A stretch of 53,044 nucleotides of DNA from Phycisphaerae bacterium (GTDB taxonomy: Bacteria; Planctomycetota; Phycisphaerae; Phycisphaerales; SM1A02). Under the pieces are notes generated by a model. That model made no database searches. It had not been told where the DNA came from and saw nothing but the letters and a program-made list of their open reading frames with translations. The position numbers and the translations under genes are program-made. This document shows, one piece after another, positions 15,356 to 23,541 of this stretch (the stretch's first letter is position 1; each line of letters opens with the position of its first letter). The DNA lies in assembly GCA_002862305.1 (NCBI GenBank), contig PKCS01000033.1, positions 1 through 53,044 on the forward strand, given 5' to 3'.

Positions 15356-16468
15356 ATGAACATCAAGCCACGAAAAGGCTTCACCATCATCGAGCTTCTG
15401 GTGGTGGTCTCGATCATCGCACTGCTGATCGGCATTCTCCTGCCGGCGCTCGGCCGAGCGCGCGACAGTGCGCTGCAGTCGACGAGCCTCTCCAACCTCC
15501 GCCAGATCTCCGCGGGACTCGCCGCGTACGCGGGCAACTGGAGCGACCGGCAGCCGACCCTCATTCCCGACGACTTCTGTCAGGCTGCGGGCGGCAACAA
15601 CCCCACCAGGGCCGCGAACTACATCGCGAACATCCACTGCCTGCCGCAGCCGATCCTCGGCTGGTACAACGACAACGGCGTCCGAACCCTCTGGGGCTAC
15701 TACATCAACAACGGAAACCCCGACTGCGGAACCGTCGGACAGGTCGGAAACGTCGTGGTGGCCACGCCCTACGACGCGGACACCCTGATCGGCTACTTCC
15801 GGATCATGAACCACAAGATCTTCGCCCAGTACATGAACGACCGGTACTACGACGAGGTCTTCTACGCCCCGAAGGACCGCAGGAAGCGCGAGAAGGTCGA
15901 GGAGTTCTTCGACCTTCCCGACGAGTTCAACTCGGATTCCTCGGGCGGTGCCATCGAGTGGCCTTCCTACTGCCTCGCGGCCTCCGCGATGATCGCCCCC
16001 GACGTGGCCGCAGGCGAGCGGTGCCAGGCCGGCACGTTCGTCGAGAACCCGACCCAGATGTGCGACCCCTGCGACTTCAAGGGTGGCTACAAGTCCCCGC
16101 CGGTCGGCATGGCGTCGTACCCGGACCTCAAGCTTCGCTGCTGGGAGCACGAGTGGCTTCAGAACAACCCCAATGAGCTGAACCCGCTCTTCAACCAGGA
16201 GACCCCCTACTACTACAACCACAGTCCGCAGTCCGCGCCCTGTGCGTTGATGTACGACGGGTCGGTCAGGATCTTCAGTGCCAACGAGGCGGTCCAGTCC
16301 AACCAGCGAGTCGAGCGACAAGGGTCCGGCTCCCTCTGGATCAACGACTGGAACGGCCAGGACTACTTCGAGGGCGCCAGCCACGGCTTCCCCGAGGAGT
16401 GGACCTCCTTCGGTGTCCACACGCGTGACGGCATCAAGGGCAAGGACACCACTGGTGCCGAAGGCTGA
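15356..16468 (+). CDS. Prepilin-type N-terminal methylation protein (type II secretion / pilin-like)
   Basis: The 370-aa product starts with a short basic leader and a type IV prepilin processing site, KGFTIIELLVVVSIIALLIG. The peptidase would cut after the Gly and methylate the Phe, with the Glu at +5. A long N-terminal helix (GILLPALGRARDSALQ) is followed by a globular domain with many Tyr, Asn and paired Cys. Near the end is a conserved His...DG segment (NHSPQSAPCALMYDGSVRIF) like the H-x9-DG tails of planctomycete pseudopilin families. It should be inserted in the inner membrane and assembled or displayed outside. AAAGGA precedes the ATG. A strong hairpin terminator follows. Confidence 0.9.
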   Translation: MNIKPRKGFTIIELLVVVSIIALLIGILLPALGRARDSALQSTSLSNLRQISAGLAAYAGNWSDRQPTLIPDDFCQAAGGNNPTRAANYIANIHCLPQPILGWYNDNGVRTLWGYYINNGNPDCGTVGQVGNVVVATPYDADTLIGYFRIMNHKIFAQYMNDRYYDEVFYAPKDRRKREKVEEFFDLPDEFNSDSSGGAIEWPSYCLAASAMIAPDVAAGERCQAGTFVENPTQMCDPCDFKGGYKSPPVGMASYPDLKLRCWEHEWLQNNPNELNPLFNQETPYYYNHSPQSAPCALMYDGSVRIFSANEAVQSNQRVERQGSGSLWINDWNGQDYFEGASHGFPEEWTSFGVHTRDGIKGKDTTGAEG

Positions 16469-16526
16469 TTCCACCCGGCGTGCACCCGTCGTCTGCTGAC
16501 GGCGGTGCTCCCGGAACAGAGTGTCG

Positions 16527-16558
16527 AAAGCCGCCGTGCCTCAGGGCACGGCGGCTTT
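16527..16558. terminator. Perfect hairpin terminator between convergent genes
   Basis: AAAGCCGCCGTGCC (16527-16540) pairs fully with GGCACGGCGGCTTT (16545-16558) over a TCAG tetraloop, a 14-bp stem with A/T ends. It lies between the prepilin-like gene and the convergent DUF1294 gene and can work on both strands. Confidence 0.88.
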
Positions 16559-16578
16559 GTCATGTGCGCGGGCTTCGG

Positions 16579-16884
16579 TCAGGCGGTCCCCACCGCCAAC
16601 CAGGACACCATCAGCAGCAGGGCGAATCCGAGCACCGAGCAGCACAGGGTCCGCACCAGGAATCCCGGCTTGCGGGACTTGTGGCGGAGGGTGAGGATCG
16701 CCACCCAGGCCATGGGGAACCCGCCCAGCAGCTCGAGGAGGTGAAGACGGCGCTCGGGAACGCGGGTGCGGTGCCGGCGGGCTGCCCGCTTGTCCCAGGC
16801 GTAGGCAAGGAAGGTCAGGACGTTGATCAGGAGGTACCAGGACAGGGCGGCGAGGAGCTGAACCTGCATGGACCATTCCGACAT
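16579..16884 (-). CDS. DUF1294 family membrane protein
   Basis: This 101-aa protein has about three membrane segments and the conserved DUF1294 core: YAWDKRAARRHRTRVPERRL followed by HLLELLGGFPMAWVAIL and an RHKSRKPGF basic loop, then a C-terminal hydrophobic helix. The family is widespread, sits in the inner membrane and has no known function. GGGAGGGA lies 8 nt before the ATG. It is 20 bp downstream of another small membrane-protein gene, so the pair is probably one operon. Confidence 0.88.
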   Translation of the reverse strand: MSEWSMQVQLLAALSWYLLINVLTFLAYAWDKRAARRHRTRVPERRLHLLELLGGFPMAWVAILTLRHKSRKPGFLVRTLCCSVLGFALLLMVSWLAVGTA

Positions 16885-16904
16885 CGAGCGATCCCTCCCG
16901 GGAC

Positions 16905-17285
16905 TCAGACCGGGACGGGGCCGGCCAGCATCGCGAAGAACAGCCAGACCAGCGATGCCAGGATCACGGCAAGCACCGCCACCACCAGGAGTCGACGGCG
17001 TCGAACCACGCGTTCCCGACCGAGGTCGACGTACCAGCGGCCGTCATCGAGCCTTCGAGCGACCCCGGACCGCCGCCAGGGACCCAGCAGCATCTCTCGC
17101 GGGATGCCGAGCGAGCTGATCTTGCGGGCGGTCTCCGGGGAGGTCGCCCCGGCGTCGATCAGCTTGCGGACCGGACTGGCCGGACGTCTCAGGATCATCG
17201 AGGCGATCATGATCGGGGTGATGAGCATCCCGAGACCGAGGCCAGCACCGAGCCCGCCACCACCGAATGGATTCGCCGGTTCCAT
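16905..17285 (-). CDS. Small two-helix membrane protein of unknown function
   Basis: The 126-aa product has a Gly-rich start and a first membrane segment (GLGLGMLITPIMIASMIL). A basic cytoplasmic-type middle (SPVRKLIDAGATSPETARKI, then GPWRRSGVARRLDDGRWYVD) is followed by an RRRR stretch and a second strongly hydrophobic segment near the C-terminus. The positive-inside pattern suggests that the central loop faces the cytoplasm. It is not a family I recognise. It lies directly upstream of the DUF1294 gene and downstream of groEL, from which it is separated by a terminator. Confidence 0.7.
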   Translation of the reverse strand: MEPANPFGGGGLGAGLGLGMLITPIMIASMILRRPASPVRKLIDAGATSPETARKISSLGIPREMLLGPWRRSGVARRLDDGRWYVDLGRERVVRRRRLLVVAVLAVILASLVWLFFAMLAGPVPV

Positions 17286-17345
17286 GAAGTCACCGTCGGC
17301 AGGTTCGCGTCACGGACATTGAATCCCTCCGCGAAAAGGGCGAAG

Positions 17346-17375
17346 AAAAAGCCCGGGTGCGCGAGGCACCCGGGC
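17346..17375 (-). terminator. Rho-independent terminator after groEL
   Basis: On the minus strand, GCCCGGGTGC (17375-17366) and GCACCCGGGC (17360-17351) form a perfect 10-bp GC stem with a 5-nt loop, followed by TTTTT (17350-17346). It begins 25 bp after the groEL stop. Confidence 0.92.
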
Positions 17376-17399
17376 GGTTCGTCGGAAGGGGACGGGGGT

Positions 17400-19034
17400 T
17401 CAATAGTCCATGCCGTCCATGCCGGCGCCGGCGGGGGCGCCATCCTTCTTCTCCTTGATCTCGGTGATCGCGCAGTCGGTGGTGAGCAGCAGCCCGCTGA
17501 TCGATGCGGCGTTCTGCAGGGCCACGCGCTCGACCTTGGTGGGGACGATCACGCCGGAGGCGACCAGATCCTCGTATTCACCGGTCATGGCGTTGAAGCC
17601 GAAGGTGGCCGAGTCGTTCTCGATCACCTTCTGGCAGACGATCGAACCGTCCAGCCCGCAGTTGTCCGCGATCTGGCGGATCGGGGCGGCCACCGCGCGG
17701 TGGACGATGTCGCAGCCGATCTTCTCGTCTCCCGTGCAGCCCTTGCGGACCTTCTCGATCGCGGCACGCGCGCGGATGACCGCGACGCCGCCGCCGGGCA
17801 GGACGCCCTCCTCGACCGCGGCACGGCACGCGTGGAGCGCATCCTCGACGCGAGCCTTCTTCTCCTTCATCTCGACCTCGGTCGCGGCGCCGACGTTGAT
17901 CTGGGCGACGCCCCCGGCGAGCTTGGCGAGGCGTTCCTGCAGCTTCTCCGCGTCGTAGTCGCTGGAGGAGGCGTCGATCTGGGCCTTGATCTGCTCGATC
18001 CGGGCCTGGATGTCCGAGGTCTTGCCGGCACCCTCGACGATGGTGGTGGTGTCCTTGGTGATGGTCACCTTCTTGGCACGACCCAGCTCCCCGATCTCGA
18101 GCTTCTCGAGATCGATGCCGAGCTCCTCCATGATCGCGGTGCCACCGGTCAGGACCGCGATGTCCTCGAGCATGGCCTTCCTGCGATCCCCGAAGCCGGG
18201 CGCCTTGACGGCTGCGACCTTCAGGACCCCGCGAAGCCGGTTGACCACCAGGGTCGCGAGCGCCTCGCCGTCCACGTCCTCGCAGATGAGAAGGATCCCC
18301 TTGCCGCTCTCGGCGATCTTGCCGAGAACCGGGATGAGGTCCTTGGCGGAGGAGATCTTCTTCTCGTGGATCAGCACGTAGCAGTCCTCGAGCGTGCACT
18401 CCATCTCGGCGGTGTCGGTCACGAAGTGGGGGCTGAGGTAGCCCTTGTCGAACTGCATGCCCTCGAGCAGCTCGACCTCCGTGGAGAGGCTCTTGCCTTC
18501 CTCGACGGTGATCACCCCGTCCTTGCCGACCTTGTCCATGGCCTCGGCGATGATCTTGCCGATCTCCTTGTCCTGGTTCGCGGAGCAGGAGCCGACCTGC
18601 GAGATCTCCGTGGAGTCCTTGACCGGCTTGCTCATCCCGGCCAGGGCATCGATGACCCCCTGGACCGCGGCGTCGATCCCGCGCTTGACGGCGTTCGCGT
18701 TGGCTCCCGCGGTGATGTTCTTGAGGCCCTCCTGGAAGATCGATTCCGCGTAGATGGTGGCGGTGGTGGTCCCGTCGCCGGCGTCCTTGCTGGACTTGCT
18801 GGCGACCTCCTTGACCATCTGCGCTCCCATGTTCTCGTAGGGATCCTCGAGCTCGATCTCCTTCGCCACGCTGACCCCGTCCTTGGTCACGGTCGGGGCG
18901 CCGAAGCTCTTCTCGAGCACCACGACCCTGCCCGAGGGGCCGAGGGTGACCTTGACGGCCCGGGAGAGCTTCTTGATTCCCGCGAGGATCCGCTCTCGCG
19001 CTTCGTTGTCGAATGCAATCTGCTTTGCAGACAT
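17400..19034 (-). CDS. groEL: Chaperonin GroEL (60 kDa)
   Basis: GroEL forms the double-ring chamber that folds cytoplasmic proteins with GroES and ATP. The 544-aa sequence is full length, with the N-terminal equatorial motif [17 protein letters not shown] and ATP-binding [16 protein letters not shown]. The apical-domain segment and the signature [20 protein letters not shown] follow. The C-terminal tail is short, ending [10 protein letters not shown] rather than carrying a long Gly-Met repeat. GAAGGAAG precedes the ATG. It is the last gene of a minus-strand unit after groES and a 75-aa unknown gene, with a 109-bp gap before it. No CIRCE inverted repeat (GAGTGC...GCACTC type) was seen here or upstream of groES. 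Confidence 0.98.
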
Positions 19035-19143
19035 GGTGTACTTCCTTCTGGTTTGGTGGGCGGGTGCCCGTCTTGCTTGCTGTGGTTCTTGCCGTGGTTG
19101 CTGTGGGGTTGGGTTCTTCGTTCCGGGTCCGCACCGGAGGTGC

Positions 19144-19371
19144 CTATCGGCCGTCCTCCCGGGCCTGGTAGGCGGCGGCGACGTGCGAGGCGTCGATCCA
19201 GATCAGGTTCTGCCGGGTCGTGACCTGGAGTCCCTGCGAGCTGTGGAGCTCGAAGACGTCCTCGACGTTCCGGATCTCCAGGTGGGCCGATTCGCCACTG
19301 ATGACGAGGTCGAGCTCACGGTCGGTACCGACCATGTCCTTGAGTATCCTGAGCAGTGGACCGCGTTCCAT
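19144..19371 (-). CDS. Unknown 75-aa protein encoded between groES and groEL
   Basis: This small frame begins [19 protein letters not shown] and has an AGGAG site 8 nt before the ATG, so it is very likely translated. It lies 26 bp after groES and 109 bp before groEL on the same strand. The sequence alternates short hydrophobic strands ([41 protein letters not shown]), compatible with a small beta-barrel of the SH3/Sm kind. No family was recognised, and no signal peptide or membrane segment is present. By position it could be a partner or regulator of the chaperonin, but this is only inference. Confidence 0.72.
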
Positions 19372-19397
19372 GGTTCGTTCTCCTCGATCCCGGGGGA

Positions 19398-19688
19398 TCA
19401 GTCGATGATCCCGAGGATGTCGTCCTCGGTCATGATCAGGACGTCCTCGCCGTCGATCTTGACCTCGGTCCCGGAATACGAGCTGAAGATCACCTCATCG
19501 CCCTTCTTGACGGTGAACGGAACCCGGGCGCCGGTCTCCTTGTTGAGGTTGCCATCGCCCAGGGCGATGACCTTGCCCTGCTTGGGCTTGTCCTTGGCGC
19601 TTTCGGGCAGGTAGATTCCCGAGTCGGTCTGGGTTTCCGCCTCGTGTCGCTTGACGATGATCTTGTCACCGAGTGGTCTGACCTTCAT
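19398..19688 (-). CDS. groES: Co-chaperonin GroES (10 kDa)
   Basis: GroES caps the GroEL ring. The 96-aa protein starts MKVRPLGDKIIVKRHEAE, has the mobile loop ETQTDSGIYLPESAKDKPKQ and the roof/core motifs GKVIALGDG and VKKGDEVIFSSYSGTEVKIDGEDVLIMTEDDILGII. The length is canonical. The start at 19688 was chosen because MKVRPLGD is the family N-terminus and AAAGAG lies just upstream; an upstream in-frame start would add 24 unrelated residues. A receiver-like gene lies 75 bp upstream on the same strand. Confidence 0.98.
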   Translation of the reverse strand: MKVRPLGDKIIVKRHEAETQTDSGIYLPESAKDKPKQGKVIALGDGNLNKETGARVPFTVKKGDEVIFSSYSGTEVKIDGEDVLIMTEDDILGIID

Positions 19689-19763
19689 GTCTCTTTGACT
19701 CCATACGTCCAGGGGGCAGGAATGCCCGTGCTTGAATGCGACGCGGGGTGGGCGAGCCACCGT

Positions 19764-20240
19764 TCACGCCGCGGACCAGTGATCCGAATAGTGCCGACGA
19801 ACGATTCGCCGGAGGACCTCGAGCATCGGCTCGATCTTGACGGGGCCGTCCATGACCGTGTACGCACCCTCGCGGAGTGCGCTCGAGAGGCCCCGGGTGG
19901 AGCCTCGCAGCGTCGCCGGCCGGGGCCGGACCACCACCGTGGGTGGTGGCGCGTCCTGGCGGCGGAGGATCTTCAGAAGCCGCTCCCCTCCGGGCTCGTC
20001 CGCGGTGCGGTCGAGGGGGATCCGGAGGTCGATGACGGCGATGTGAACGGGCCTGACCTGCAGGAGCGTGGTCGCCTCCTCGGCCGATCCGACCCTGAGG
20101 CAGTCGATGCCCATGGGCTCCAGCAGGCGCGGGAGCTGTTCAGCGAAGTTCTGGCGCTCCCAACCCCCGTAGCTGAGCATCAGCGACAGGCGGTTGCCCT
20201 CGGCGGTCGTCTCGGCTGGATTCGGGGAAGGAAGTGTCAT
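19764..20240 (-). CDS. Response-regulator receiver-like protein
   Basis: This protein of about 158 aa has a receiver (CheY-like) domain pattern. [12 protein letters not shown] is followed by [13 protein letters not shown], where the Asp after the hydrophobic strand matches the phospho-acceptor. [16 protein letters not shown] resembles the beta4 region, and [18 protein letters not shown] the conserved Lys and last helix. The acidic pair at the end of beta1 is not clear, so phosphorylation is uncertain. No output domain follows. The start could be the ATG at 20240 or an in-frame GTG at 20279; neither has a good ribosome site. It precedes groES on the same strand. Confidence 0.65.
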
Positions 20241-20473
20241 GCCGGGAGGGGGCAAGGGGCGTGCCGATTCGGGATCCACGGCGCCCCCCGCTCAGGAGCC
20301 CTGAACGGGCGTGCTGGGGGGGCGGCGGGCCCGGCTGGTGCCACAGCTCCGGGCAGGGCGGCGCCGCGCTGCCATTCTGGCACGTCATCCAGGTTGCCCC
20401 GGACCGACCGAACCGGGGATACTGGATCTCCCGGAGCCGCGTGGGCTCCGACCCCCCCACCTGGAAGACCACC

Positions 20474-21892
20474 ATGCCAGCCGGAACTCCGATAGCGGAC
20501 CTCTACTCCTCACCACCGGACTCCCTGATCGGCAGGACCCTCGAGGTCACCGGCTGGGTGAGGACCCGACGGGACTCGAAGGCCGGGATCTCCTTCCTGC
20601 AGGTCTCGGATGGATCGTGTTTCGATGCCTTCCAGGTGGTGGTCCCCAGCGAGCTCGAGAACTACGAATCCGAGGTCCTCAGGATCACCACCGGTTGCGC
20701 GGTCCGCTGCCGGGGCGAAGTGGTCGAGAGTCGCGGGAAGGGGCAGGCGCTCGAGATGAAGGCGGCGGGCGTCGAGGTCGTGGGCTGGATCGAGGATCCC
20801 GACAGCTACCCGATGCAGGCCAAGCGGCACTCCTTCGAGTACCTCCGGGAGGTGGCCCACCTGAGGCCGAGATCCAACACCTTCGGTGCGCTGGGCCGGG
20901 TCAGGCACTGCCTCTCGATGGCCGTGCACCGGTTCATGGACGAACACGGGTTCCACTGGATACACACCCCGATCATCACCGCGAACGACTGCGAGGGCGC
21001 GGGCGAGATGTTCAGGGTGTCGACCCTGGACCTGGCCAATCTTCCACGCGACGAGGACGGCGCGGTGGACTTCGGGCAGGACTTCTTCGGCCGGGAATCA
21101 CACCTGACGGTGTCCGGACAGCTGAACGTGGAGACGTGGTGCAGTGCCCTCAGCAAGGTCTACACGTTCGGGCCCACCTTCAGGGCGGAGAATTCGAACA
21201 CCAGTCGACATCTCGCCGAATTCTGGATGGTGGAGCCGGAGATCGCGTTCGCCGACCTCAGCGATGACGCGGACCTCGCGGAGGCGATGCTCAAGTACCT
21301 CTTCCGGACCCTACTCGAGGAACGGGCCGACGACATGCGGTTCTTCCAGGAGCGGGTCGACGAGGGATGCATCGACCGGCTCGAGACCTTCGTCGACTCG
21401 TCGTTCGAGCGAATGGAGTATGGCGAGGCGATCCGAGCACTCGAGCAGGCGGTAGCGAAGGGACGTCGGTTCGACTTCCCGGTGTCCTGGGGGATCGACC
21501 TGCAGTCGGAGCACGAGCGGTACCTCACCGAGGAGCTCGTGGGACGGCCGGTGGTGGTCATGAACTACCCCAAGGACATCAAGGCGTTCTACATGCGCAT
21601 GAACGACGATGGACGGACCGTGGCGGCGATGGACGTGCTGGCGCCGGGGATCGGGGAGATCATCGGGGGTTCGCAGAGGGAGGAACGGTTGGAGGTGCTC
21701 GACGATCGCCTCGAGGAGATGGGACTCGACAAGGCCGATTACTGGTGGTACCGGGACCTGCGTCGGTACGGCACCGTGCCCCATGCGGGCTTCGGGCTCG
21801 GCTTCGAACGCACCATCCTCTACGCGACCGGAATGGCCAACGTGCGTGACGTGATCCCCTTCCCCCGGACGCCGAACTCGGCGGAGTTCTAG
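20474..21892 (+). CDS. asnS: Asparaginyl-tRNA synthetase
   Basis: AsnS charges tRNA-Asn in the cytoplasm. The 472-aa class IIb synthetase has an N-terminal OB-fold anticodon-binding domain ([20 protein letters not shown]) and the hinge [19 protein letters not shown]. The catalytic core has motif 2 ([28 protein letters not shown]) and motif 3 ([17 protein letters not shown]). [11 protein letters not shown] at the end is typical of AsnS rather than AspRS. GGAAG lies 9 nt before the ATG at 20474; longer upstream frames have no coding character. A GGATACTGG extended -10-like box lies near 20417. The short leader that follows can form a GGAGCC/GGCTCC hairpin. Confidence 0.97.
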
Positions 21893-22164
21893 GCTTCTGG
21901 GCCCTTGATCGAGTCTGATAACCAGTCTCGGACCGGCCTGGAATCCCCTGTGGACGCTTCAGAGCTTCGAACGAGGCGTGGCCGTTCAAAAGTTAAGTAA
22001 TTGGAGTCCTTGAGGTTGAGTGTGGGACGAATTGACGTATTCTCGGGATACGAACTGTATCAGTTCACCCAGGAAACGGGTTTTACCAGAGCCCGGTCGG
22101 GACCTCCGCTGTGTGTGGCGGATTCCTGAGTTCCCTGGAATGGATTGATCGATGGGAGTCGTTC

Positions 22165-22728
22165 GTGAAGAGATGTAGTGCCATAGCAGTGGTCGTTGCA
22201 TGTTCTGTCGGTGCTGTCGCACACGCGGACTACAACCTGCAACTGGAATTCTTCTCGGCGTATGGCGGTGAGTTCCAGCAGGTCACGGTTGGGGATCGCG
22301 ACACGCTCGAGGGATCCCTCACGACGGTTGCCGCCAATTTCGTGATGACCGCGAGTGAGGGATTCACCTACTCCAACGACCTCACGGTCCTGATCGCGGC
22401 AGACCTGAATTCCGATCCGATCATCCAGATCGGTGGATTCACCGACTGGGGAGCGGGGTTCCGCTACGAGTGGCCGAACGGTGCGAGCTCGACTCCGGGG
22501 ACGACCGGAGGTGGCGACATCTCGATCCCGTCCATCCCCGTGACCGGGCTCAAGATGTTCGTCGGCAACGGCTACGACGGCGGCCTCACGGCGACCGGAA
22601 CGTGGCTGGGCAACGTCGTCCTGTTCGGAGTCGACCTCGTCGTCGACCCGGGCCCGGCGATTCCCGCTCCGGGTGCGATCGCGGTCCTCGGCCTGGCCGG
22701 GGTGTTCACCCGCCGACGCCGACGCTGA
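22165..22728 (+). CDS. Secreted PEP-CTERM-like protein, paralogue 1
   Basis: The 187-aa product starts with GTG (VKRCSAIAVVVACSVGAVAHA, a signal peptide) with GGGAG 6 nt upstream. A globular domain has SEGFTYSNDLTVLIA, IIQIGGFTDW and GTTGGGDISIPSIPVTGL. A C-terminal sorting tail follows, PAIPAPGAIAVLGLAGVFTRRRRR: a Pro-rich motif, a hydrophobic span and an Arg cluster, as in exosortase/PEP-CTERM substrates. It is clearly homologous to the next gene along its whole length. The protein is probably processed at the envelope and released or anchored. Its function is unknown. The AT-richer upstream region has a -10-like TATTCT at about 22039-22044. Confidence 0.82.
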   Translation: MKRCSAIAVVVACSVGAVAHADYNLQLEFFSAYGGEFQQVTVGDRDTLEGSLTTVAANFVMTASEGFTYSNDLTVLIAADLNSDPIIQIGGFTDWGAGFRYEWPNGASSTPGTTGGGDISIPSIPVTGLKMFVGNGYDGGLTATGTWLGNVVLFGVDLVVDPGPAIPAPGAIAVLGLAGVFTRRRRR

Positions 22729-22989: not shown

Positions 22990-23541
22990 ATGGGCAAGCA
23001 ACTCTTATTGGGGGCCGTAGCCACGGCCACCATGGCCTCGGTGGTCTGCGCCGACGTCAACATTTCATTCGAGAACCTGGAGGCATCGGGCTTCCAGTTC
23101 GTACGTCAGGGATTCGACGAGTCAACCCAGCAGTTCCAGACCCTCGAAGGCTTTCTCAGCGGGTATGCGGGGAGCTTCGTGCTCAACGAGCAGGGACAGA
23201 ACTTCACGTACTGTGACGACCTCTGCATCCTGATCGCGAACGAGGATCTGACGGAGATCGTGGCGCAGATCGGTGGCTTCAGCACCGTTGCCCCGATCAA
23301 GTACAGCTGGACCAGCGGCGGCAGCGACGCGGCCGGTACCACCGGTGGCGGCGCAGGCGACGTCCTGCCCGAGATCGACGTGACCGGCTACGCCCTGTGG
23401 ATCGGCAACGGCTACGGTGGCGGCGGAATCGGTGACTGGACCGGAGACATCTCCCTCCAGGGGGTCAATCTGGTCCCGGCACCCGGTGCGCTGGCCATGC
23501 TCGGACTCGCAGGGATCTGCGCCCGAAGGCGGCGGATCTGA
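22990..23541 (+). CDS. Secreted PEP-CTERM-like protein, paralogue 2
   Basis: The 183-aa product has a signal peptide (MGKQLLLGAVATATMASVVCA) and a domain matching paralogue 1 (NFTYCDDLCILIANEDL, VAQIGGFS, GTTGGGAGDVLPEIDVTGY, IGNGYGGGG). The sorting tail reads VPAPGALAMLGLAGICARRRR. AAGGAG lies 9 nt before the ATG. The 260-bp gap after paralogue 1 is AT-richer than its surroundings and may hold its own promoter, so the genes may be expressed separately. A hairpin terminator follows. A paired Cys (TYCDDLC) is absent from paralogue 1. Confidence 0.85.
   Translation: MGKQLLLGAVATATMASVVCADVNISFENLEASGFQFVRQGFDESTQQFQTLEGFLSGYAGSFVLNEQGQNFTYCDDLCILIANEDLTEIVAQIGGFSTVAPIKYSWTSGGSDAAGTTGGGAGDVLPEIDVTGYALWIGNGYGGGGIGDWTGDISLQGVNLVPAPGALAMLGLAGICARRRRI

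Follow-up and report, generated by a model that had tools for sequence, protein, structure and literature searches.

We found that a 75-aa gene, ORF75, lies between groES and groEL in one lineage of planctomycetes, that it is restricted to this lineage and belongs there to one particular chaperonin operon, and that its product is predicted to be an Sm-like small beta-barrel protein. The stretch of DNA analyzed, hereafter the window, comprises 53,044 nucleotides from a Phycisphaerae bacterium (GenBank assembly GCA_002862305.1, contig PKCS01000033.1, positions 1-53,044). ORF75 and its homologues are referred to as family A, and a different small gene found in the same interval of related genomes as B. 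The features of the operon in the window are as follows:

17351-17375, minus strand: terminator-like hairpin just 3' of the groEL stop (10 pairs, 9 of them G-C, followed by a T run)
17400-19034, minus strand: groEL (Cpn60), downstream neighbour of ORF75 (PF00118, E 9.7e-71)
19035-19143, minus strand: interval between ORF75 and groEL, 109 nt, too short for gene B (66-78 aa)
19144-19371, minus strand: ORF75 (family A), encoding a 75-aa protein predicted to form an Sm-like small beta-barrel
19380-19384, minus strand: Shine-Dalgarno sequence AGGAG (CTCCT on the plus strand), 8 nt 5' of the ORF75 ATG, read from the sequence
19398-19688, minus strand: groES (Cpn10), upstream neighbour of ORF75 (PF00166, E 4.8e-34)
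19764-20279, minus strand: receiver-like gene at the head of the presumed operon (PF00072, E 0.0047, under its cut-off)

ORF75 is a genuine gene

A sequence-only reading of this DNA had described a well-initiated 75-aa gene between groES and groEL, and comparison with relatives confirmed it. In the window ORF75 starts with ATG and stops with TAG, and its frame is open across 72 codons in all 60 homologous loci; these loci were picked by their recognisable peptide, so that the absence of broken frames is partly selected for, while gene order is not. An SD-like tetramer lies 5' of the start in 45 of the 60 loci, against a background of 20%. In all 21 pairs with a protein identity of at least 90%, drawn from 58 of the 60 loci (two with an indel were omitted), dN/dS was 0.018-0.212, demonstrating that these pairs are under purifying selection. 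Distant pairs gave dN/dS of up to 0.65, with a median of 0.35 over the 158 pairs with pS below 0.55; we attribute these higher values to third-position saturation at high G+C, and therefore restrict the selection evidence to the 21 close pairs.

The window is 67% G+C, and G+C-rich genomes could harbour spurious ORFs of this size. The five other frames over the same 72 codons are open in 3, 10, 33, 6 and 0 of the 60 loci, and the frame that is open in more than half of them is what such an explanation can point to. Against it stand the unbroken ORF75 frame, the conservation of start, length and residues, and the low dN/dS of the close pairs, which together leave a spurious ORF with a negligible chance. 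The conserved columns of the alignment comprise a near-invariant N-terminus (M1-E2-R3-x-P5) and, on the surface formed by beta3 to beta5, T52, N55, I57, W58, D60, S62, H63 and V64.

The operon around ORF75

The order of the operon is receiver-like gene, groES, A or B or both where present, groEL and the terminator-like hairpin. The hairpin was called by a consensus scan, which is not proof of a terminator; the same scan found no other terminator-like site on the minus strand from 16800 to 20600, hence none between the operon genes, and it gave no sigma-70-like promoter on that strand within the operon either. We infer that ORF75 is co-transcribed with groES and groEL. Also upstream, and divergent, is a relative of the window's class II tRNA-synthetase gene (PF00152; by our reading of the asparaginyl type), present at 59 of the 60 ORF75 loci; the one locus without it lies at a contig end.

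The receiver-like gene is upstream of groES in 60/60 ORF75 loci, is kept in all 12 loci that are missing both A and B, and precedes groES in loci of all six families examined. Asp84 of its product is kept in 97% of 61 rows of the alignment, no output domain was recognised in the protein, and the other usual receiver switch residues, an acidic pair, a Thr and a Lys, are not evident in the alignment.

The genome of the window carries three groES genes: the window copy, one between two groEL genes (G000:C7, L001) and a very divergent one (G000:C53, L003). None of the three is ORF75, which has no Cpn10 (PF00166) match. The lineage also has a second groESL-like locus, in which two groEL genes flank groES. 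An ORF75-type gene is absent from it: the intervals measure 28-59 nt at L143-L147 and L150, and the window genome's own interval (L001) is 28 nt.

Elsewhere in the window we noted two similar secreted-looking proteins (22111-22728 and 22990-23541) without a Pfam match, both of which end in a PEP-CTERM-like PAPGA...LGLAG..RRRR tail, and a protein whose N-terminus carries a methylation motif like that of type IV pilins (15356-16468; PF07963).

ORF75 keeps one place in one family

An initial search found ORF75 in 22 of 61 genomes, the window's own included, and all 22 loci had the order receiver-like gene, groES, ORF75, groEL. A profile built from these 22 members identified the gene in 64 of the 181 genomes of the family, in a single copy in each, and in 64/64 groES and groEL flank it and the receiver-like gene stands upstream; relatives share 47-72% identity. 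A peptide-pattern scan of all GTDB contigs yielded the 60 loci described above, all of them assigned to Planctomycetota or to subordinate classes or orders except for one labelled just 'bacterium', and here too groES precedes and groEL follows ORF75 in every locus. The gaps in these loci are 5-101 nt between groES and ORF75 and 18-407 nt between ORF75 and groEL, the latter being 18-30 nt in 18 of the 60. The three samples share many contigs and organisms and are not independent.

In a sample of 251 genomes of the order there were ORF75 matches in 39, one of them from outside the family (G276); this match covers 33 residues, is weak and has an internal stop, and was rejected as a chance-like fragment, which leaves no convincing match outside the family in that sample. 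Two genomes of the same genus, G001 and G003, lack ORF75. Their assemblies are 54% and 79% complete and show no groES of the window type, only the paralogous locus in which groES is enclosed by two groEL genes (G001 additionally carries a very divergent groES copy), and they therefore do not test the presence of ORF75.

The expectation that the gene always lies in groESL was thus borne out for every genome that carries it, whereas the reverse fails: 22 orthologous receiver-groES-groEL loci are without ORF75, of which 10 have gene B and 12 have neither gene. In the latter 12 the interval between groES and groEL is 19-158 nt.

A second small gene, B, in the same interval

Gene B is a different gene of 66-78 aa that occurs between groES and groEL either alone or directly after ORF75. 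As a gene of 66-77 aa it stands alone at the 10 ORF75-free orthologous loci just mentioned (L124, L126, L128-L132, L135, L136 and L138) and is also present, always behind A, at 21 of the 60 ORF75 loci (among L061-L120). No B match was found in the window genome, which has ORF75 only. Within the family of 181 genomes A is present in 64, B in 62, both in 22 and neither in 77, some of the 77 being incomplete assemblies. B is more widely distributed, with 183 of 400 genomes of the order carrying it, in the window's family and three further ones (families f1, f2, f3 and f4 in our labelling). Among 392 genomes sampled across the phylum it was confined to the order, bar one partial match of 37 residues (G574) that we rejected as chance-like. 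Its place is as fixed as that of A: B lies between groES and groEL in 49/49 loci with a readable groEL (L159 ends before groEL) and in 8/8 additional loci.

The wider spread of B (four families, against one for A) suggests that it predates A. In a quick tree of GroES and GroEL from 113 loci, used only loosely, the A and B labels cluster, with 7 changes per label. At one ORF75 locus (L073, 6226-6500) we observed an apparent decayed remnant of B, and a close relative (L084) has B intact. An hhalign comparison did not show sequence homology between A and B (E 0.061 and 0.1, with a probability below 1%). Since only position, size and predicted topology link the two, we term B a second Sm-like gene and not a proven paralogue.

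Different small ORFs of about 80 aa were also seen beside B in the groES-groEL interval, at L135, L176 and L177 in family f4 and at L136 and L186 in f2. The interval seems to collect small genes.

ORF75 and B are predicted to have an Sm-like fold

A small beta-barrel pattern had been proposed for ORF75 from its sequence, and structure prediction returned such a barrel with high confidence (AlphaFold2, mean pLDDT 94.4, pTM 0.82), its nearest folds being Hfq, Sm, WYL and DUF3107. The model has a helix at residues 3-13 and strands at 19-24, 30-34, 36-41, 47-52, 56-60 and 64-67, an order of elements that we read as Sm-like: helix, beta1, bent beta2, beta3, beta4, turn, beta5. A model of B built from B's own alignment (pLDDT 89.6) has the same element order, and Hfq heads its fold list. 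Both predicted models thus show the helix and five-strand bent small barrel, with a turn between beta4 and beta5, that define the Sm-like (LSm/Hfq) fold, to which ring-forming RNA chaperones such as Hfq belong.

The fold matches of both proteins have modest scores. A Foldseek search with ORF75 was led by Hfq (4noy_F, E 0.032, probability 1.00), with nothing below 0.001, and further matches were de novo small barrels, archaeal Hfq-like proteins and an octamer entry of DUF3107 (7rus_B). In a structural second look WYL domains came out on top (7tzv_M, Z 6.0, rmsd 2.8 over 69 residues), with DriD, PafBC, BrxR and CapW at Z 6.0-5.0, followed at Z 5.2 by 1b34_B, one of the chains of the human Sm D1D2 complex, and at Z 4.9 by Hfq. 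Z values below 8 are common for chance arrangements, and those of ORF75 may reflect merely a common arrangement.

In sequence searches nothing convincing in Pfam, NCBIfam, PHROGs (searched with one A and one B protein) or the PDB sequence families claimed ORF75. With the HMMER filters applied, none of 22 A members matched the Hfq profile (PF17209) at E<=1, and no Pfam WYL match was listed for A members. DUF3107 (PF11305) gave no match to A at E<=1 and matched 12 of 21 B members, at best with E 0.0009 in the C-terminus (cut-off not shown); B also matched PDB 9nip, a DUF3107 entry named 'Small RNA-Binding protein', at E 0.035. Three further matches look like chance: ORF75 to Arl2 in the PDB (E 0.0035, 47 residues), NIR_SIR_ferr in 2 of 22 members (E 0.028, under its cut-off) and Phage_int_SAM_2 in 1 of 22 A members (E 0.0014). 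The A proteins (n=61) have a median pI of 5.0 (range 4.4-8.2) and a net charge of -5, and the B proteins (n=21) a median pI of 4.8 (range 4.3-5.7) and a net charge of -4.

Hfq, HrcA and regulatory elements

None of 61 genomes, the window's own included, has a match to Pfam Hfq, compared to 5 of 14 controls, and none of 21, again including its own, has a match to HrcA, compared to 7 of 14 controls; a missing profile match for either is not proof of a missing function. Allowing up to 5 mismatches, we found no CIRCE-like site in the window. Over the 60 loci there were two such sites with 4 mismatches each, located some 2 kb downstream of groEL in L071 and within the receiver-like gene in L100. 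Because all 21 genomes are without an HrcA match and the window is without a CIRCE-like site, groESL is probably regulated by means other than HrcA/CIRCE. No Rfam element reached its gathering threshold in 16500-21000.

Discussion

The chaperonin operon described here includes a gene for a small barrel predicted to be Sm-like. Like other bacterial groESL operons, this one has groES upstream of groEL, co-oriented, and a terminator-like hairpin after groEL. However, groESL is usually a two-gene operon, whereas here a receiver-like gene stands in front and one or two small genes (in some families other ones) lie between groES and groEL. In the literature that we surveyed, a partial coverage, no gene between groES and groEL was named in planctomycetes. 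A and B resemble Hfq/LSm proteins in their predicted N-terminal helix, bent beta2, beta4, short helical turn and beta5 and in their length of about 70 aa, and differ from them in having no Pfam Hfq match, in being mostly acidic, in showing no evident Lys-His motif of the Hfq kind and in being encoded within groESL. The likeness of A to the WYL proteins DriD, PafBC, BrxR and CapW lies in a small barrel of similar size, although A, at 75 aa, stands alone and has no DNA-binding domain. DUF3107 (Rv3208A/TB9.4; PDB 7rur, 7rus and 9nip) is likewise a small protein, with 7rus_B among the fold matches of A and a C-terminal sequence resemblance to B, while A has no sequence match to it; DUF3107 is not known to be linked to groESL.

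The sequence-only reading had put forward both a chaperonin-associated adaptor and an RNA-binding regulator of the operon. Function does not follow from a common fold, and strict linkage to groESL fits an accessory of the chaperonin and a cis-regulator equally well. Post-transcriptional control of its own groESL mRNA, or of mRNAs more widely, by an Hfq-like RNA-binding protein would suit a lineage in which Hfq is not recognisable, as in 0/61 genomes versus 5/14 controls, and in which neither HrcA matches nor, in the window, a CIRCE-like site is found. The Sm-like fold favours nucleic acid, Hfq is the leading Foldseek match for A as well as for B, the sequence of B bears some likeness to the C-terminus of a family with an entry named for RNA binding, and a cis-regulator is expected to remain in its own operon. 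The proteins themselves agree less well with this explanation: A and B are mostly acidic, A has no Hfq profile match, and the Lys-His pair, the proximal RNA-binding motif of Hfq, seems to be replaced by Asp-Ala/Ser, judging only from the strand register of the model. In addition, there is no Rfam match, and the shortest A-groEL gaps (just 18-30 nt, as noted) leave scant space there for a conserved RNA target. We regard such a regulator as somewhat unlikely.

Within the family A and B occur patchily, singly, together or not at all, which would also fit a dispensable passenger, that is, an unrelated small housekeeping protein that needs only chaperonin-like expression levels. Such a protein would, however, be expected elsewhere in some genomes, and the single match per genome lies in groESL in 64/64; we consider it unlikely. 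The constant presence of the receiver-like gene before groES (60/60 A loci, 64/64 family genomes with A) and the WYL domains as highest structural match (Z 6.0) could instead point to a signalling partner of the receiver-like protein, in a stress-sensing module whose co-expression with the chaperonin would be incidental. This is distinctly improbable, given that the receiver-like gene is kept in 12/12 loci without A and B, that canonical switch residues beyond the Asp are not evident and that Z values in this range are common for chance arrangements.

The explanation that we tentatively favour, at somewhat below even chances, is that ORF75 is a protein-binding accessory of this GroES/GroEL pair. 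Protein binding is preferred over RNA binding because of the acidic composition and because no Hfq profile match was seen; the pI of up to 8.2 in A, which shows that acidity is not universal, speaks against it. As such an accessory, A would be co-transcribed with groES and groEL and would self-assemble via exposed barrel strands; Sm-type barrels commonly self-assemble in this manner. It would bind GroES/GroEL, for instance to tune assembly or the handling of clients during stress, and the N-terminus together with the beta3-beta5 surface would form the contact surface. A is dispensable for the chaperonin, because the same operon is found in many relatives that have neither A nor B (12 of the 22 ORF75-free loci), and by the same frequent absence neither an accessory nor a regulatory role is essential. 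As a long shot, A and B might be ring-forming Sm-like subunits on the seven-fold face of GroES/GroEL, an extra co-chaperonin layer; if true, this Sm-like ring layer would be a third structural component of the bacterial chaperonin, encoded in its operon.

An order of planctomycetes thus keeps one or two extra small proteins, predicted to be Sm-like, strictly within groESL. This raises the question of whether the two proteins partner the chaperonin or stand in locally for control of the Hfq/HrcA type.
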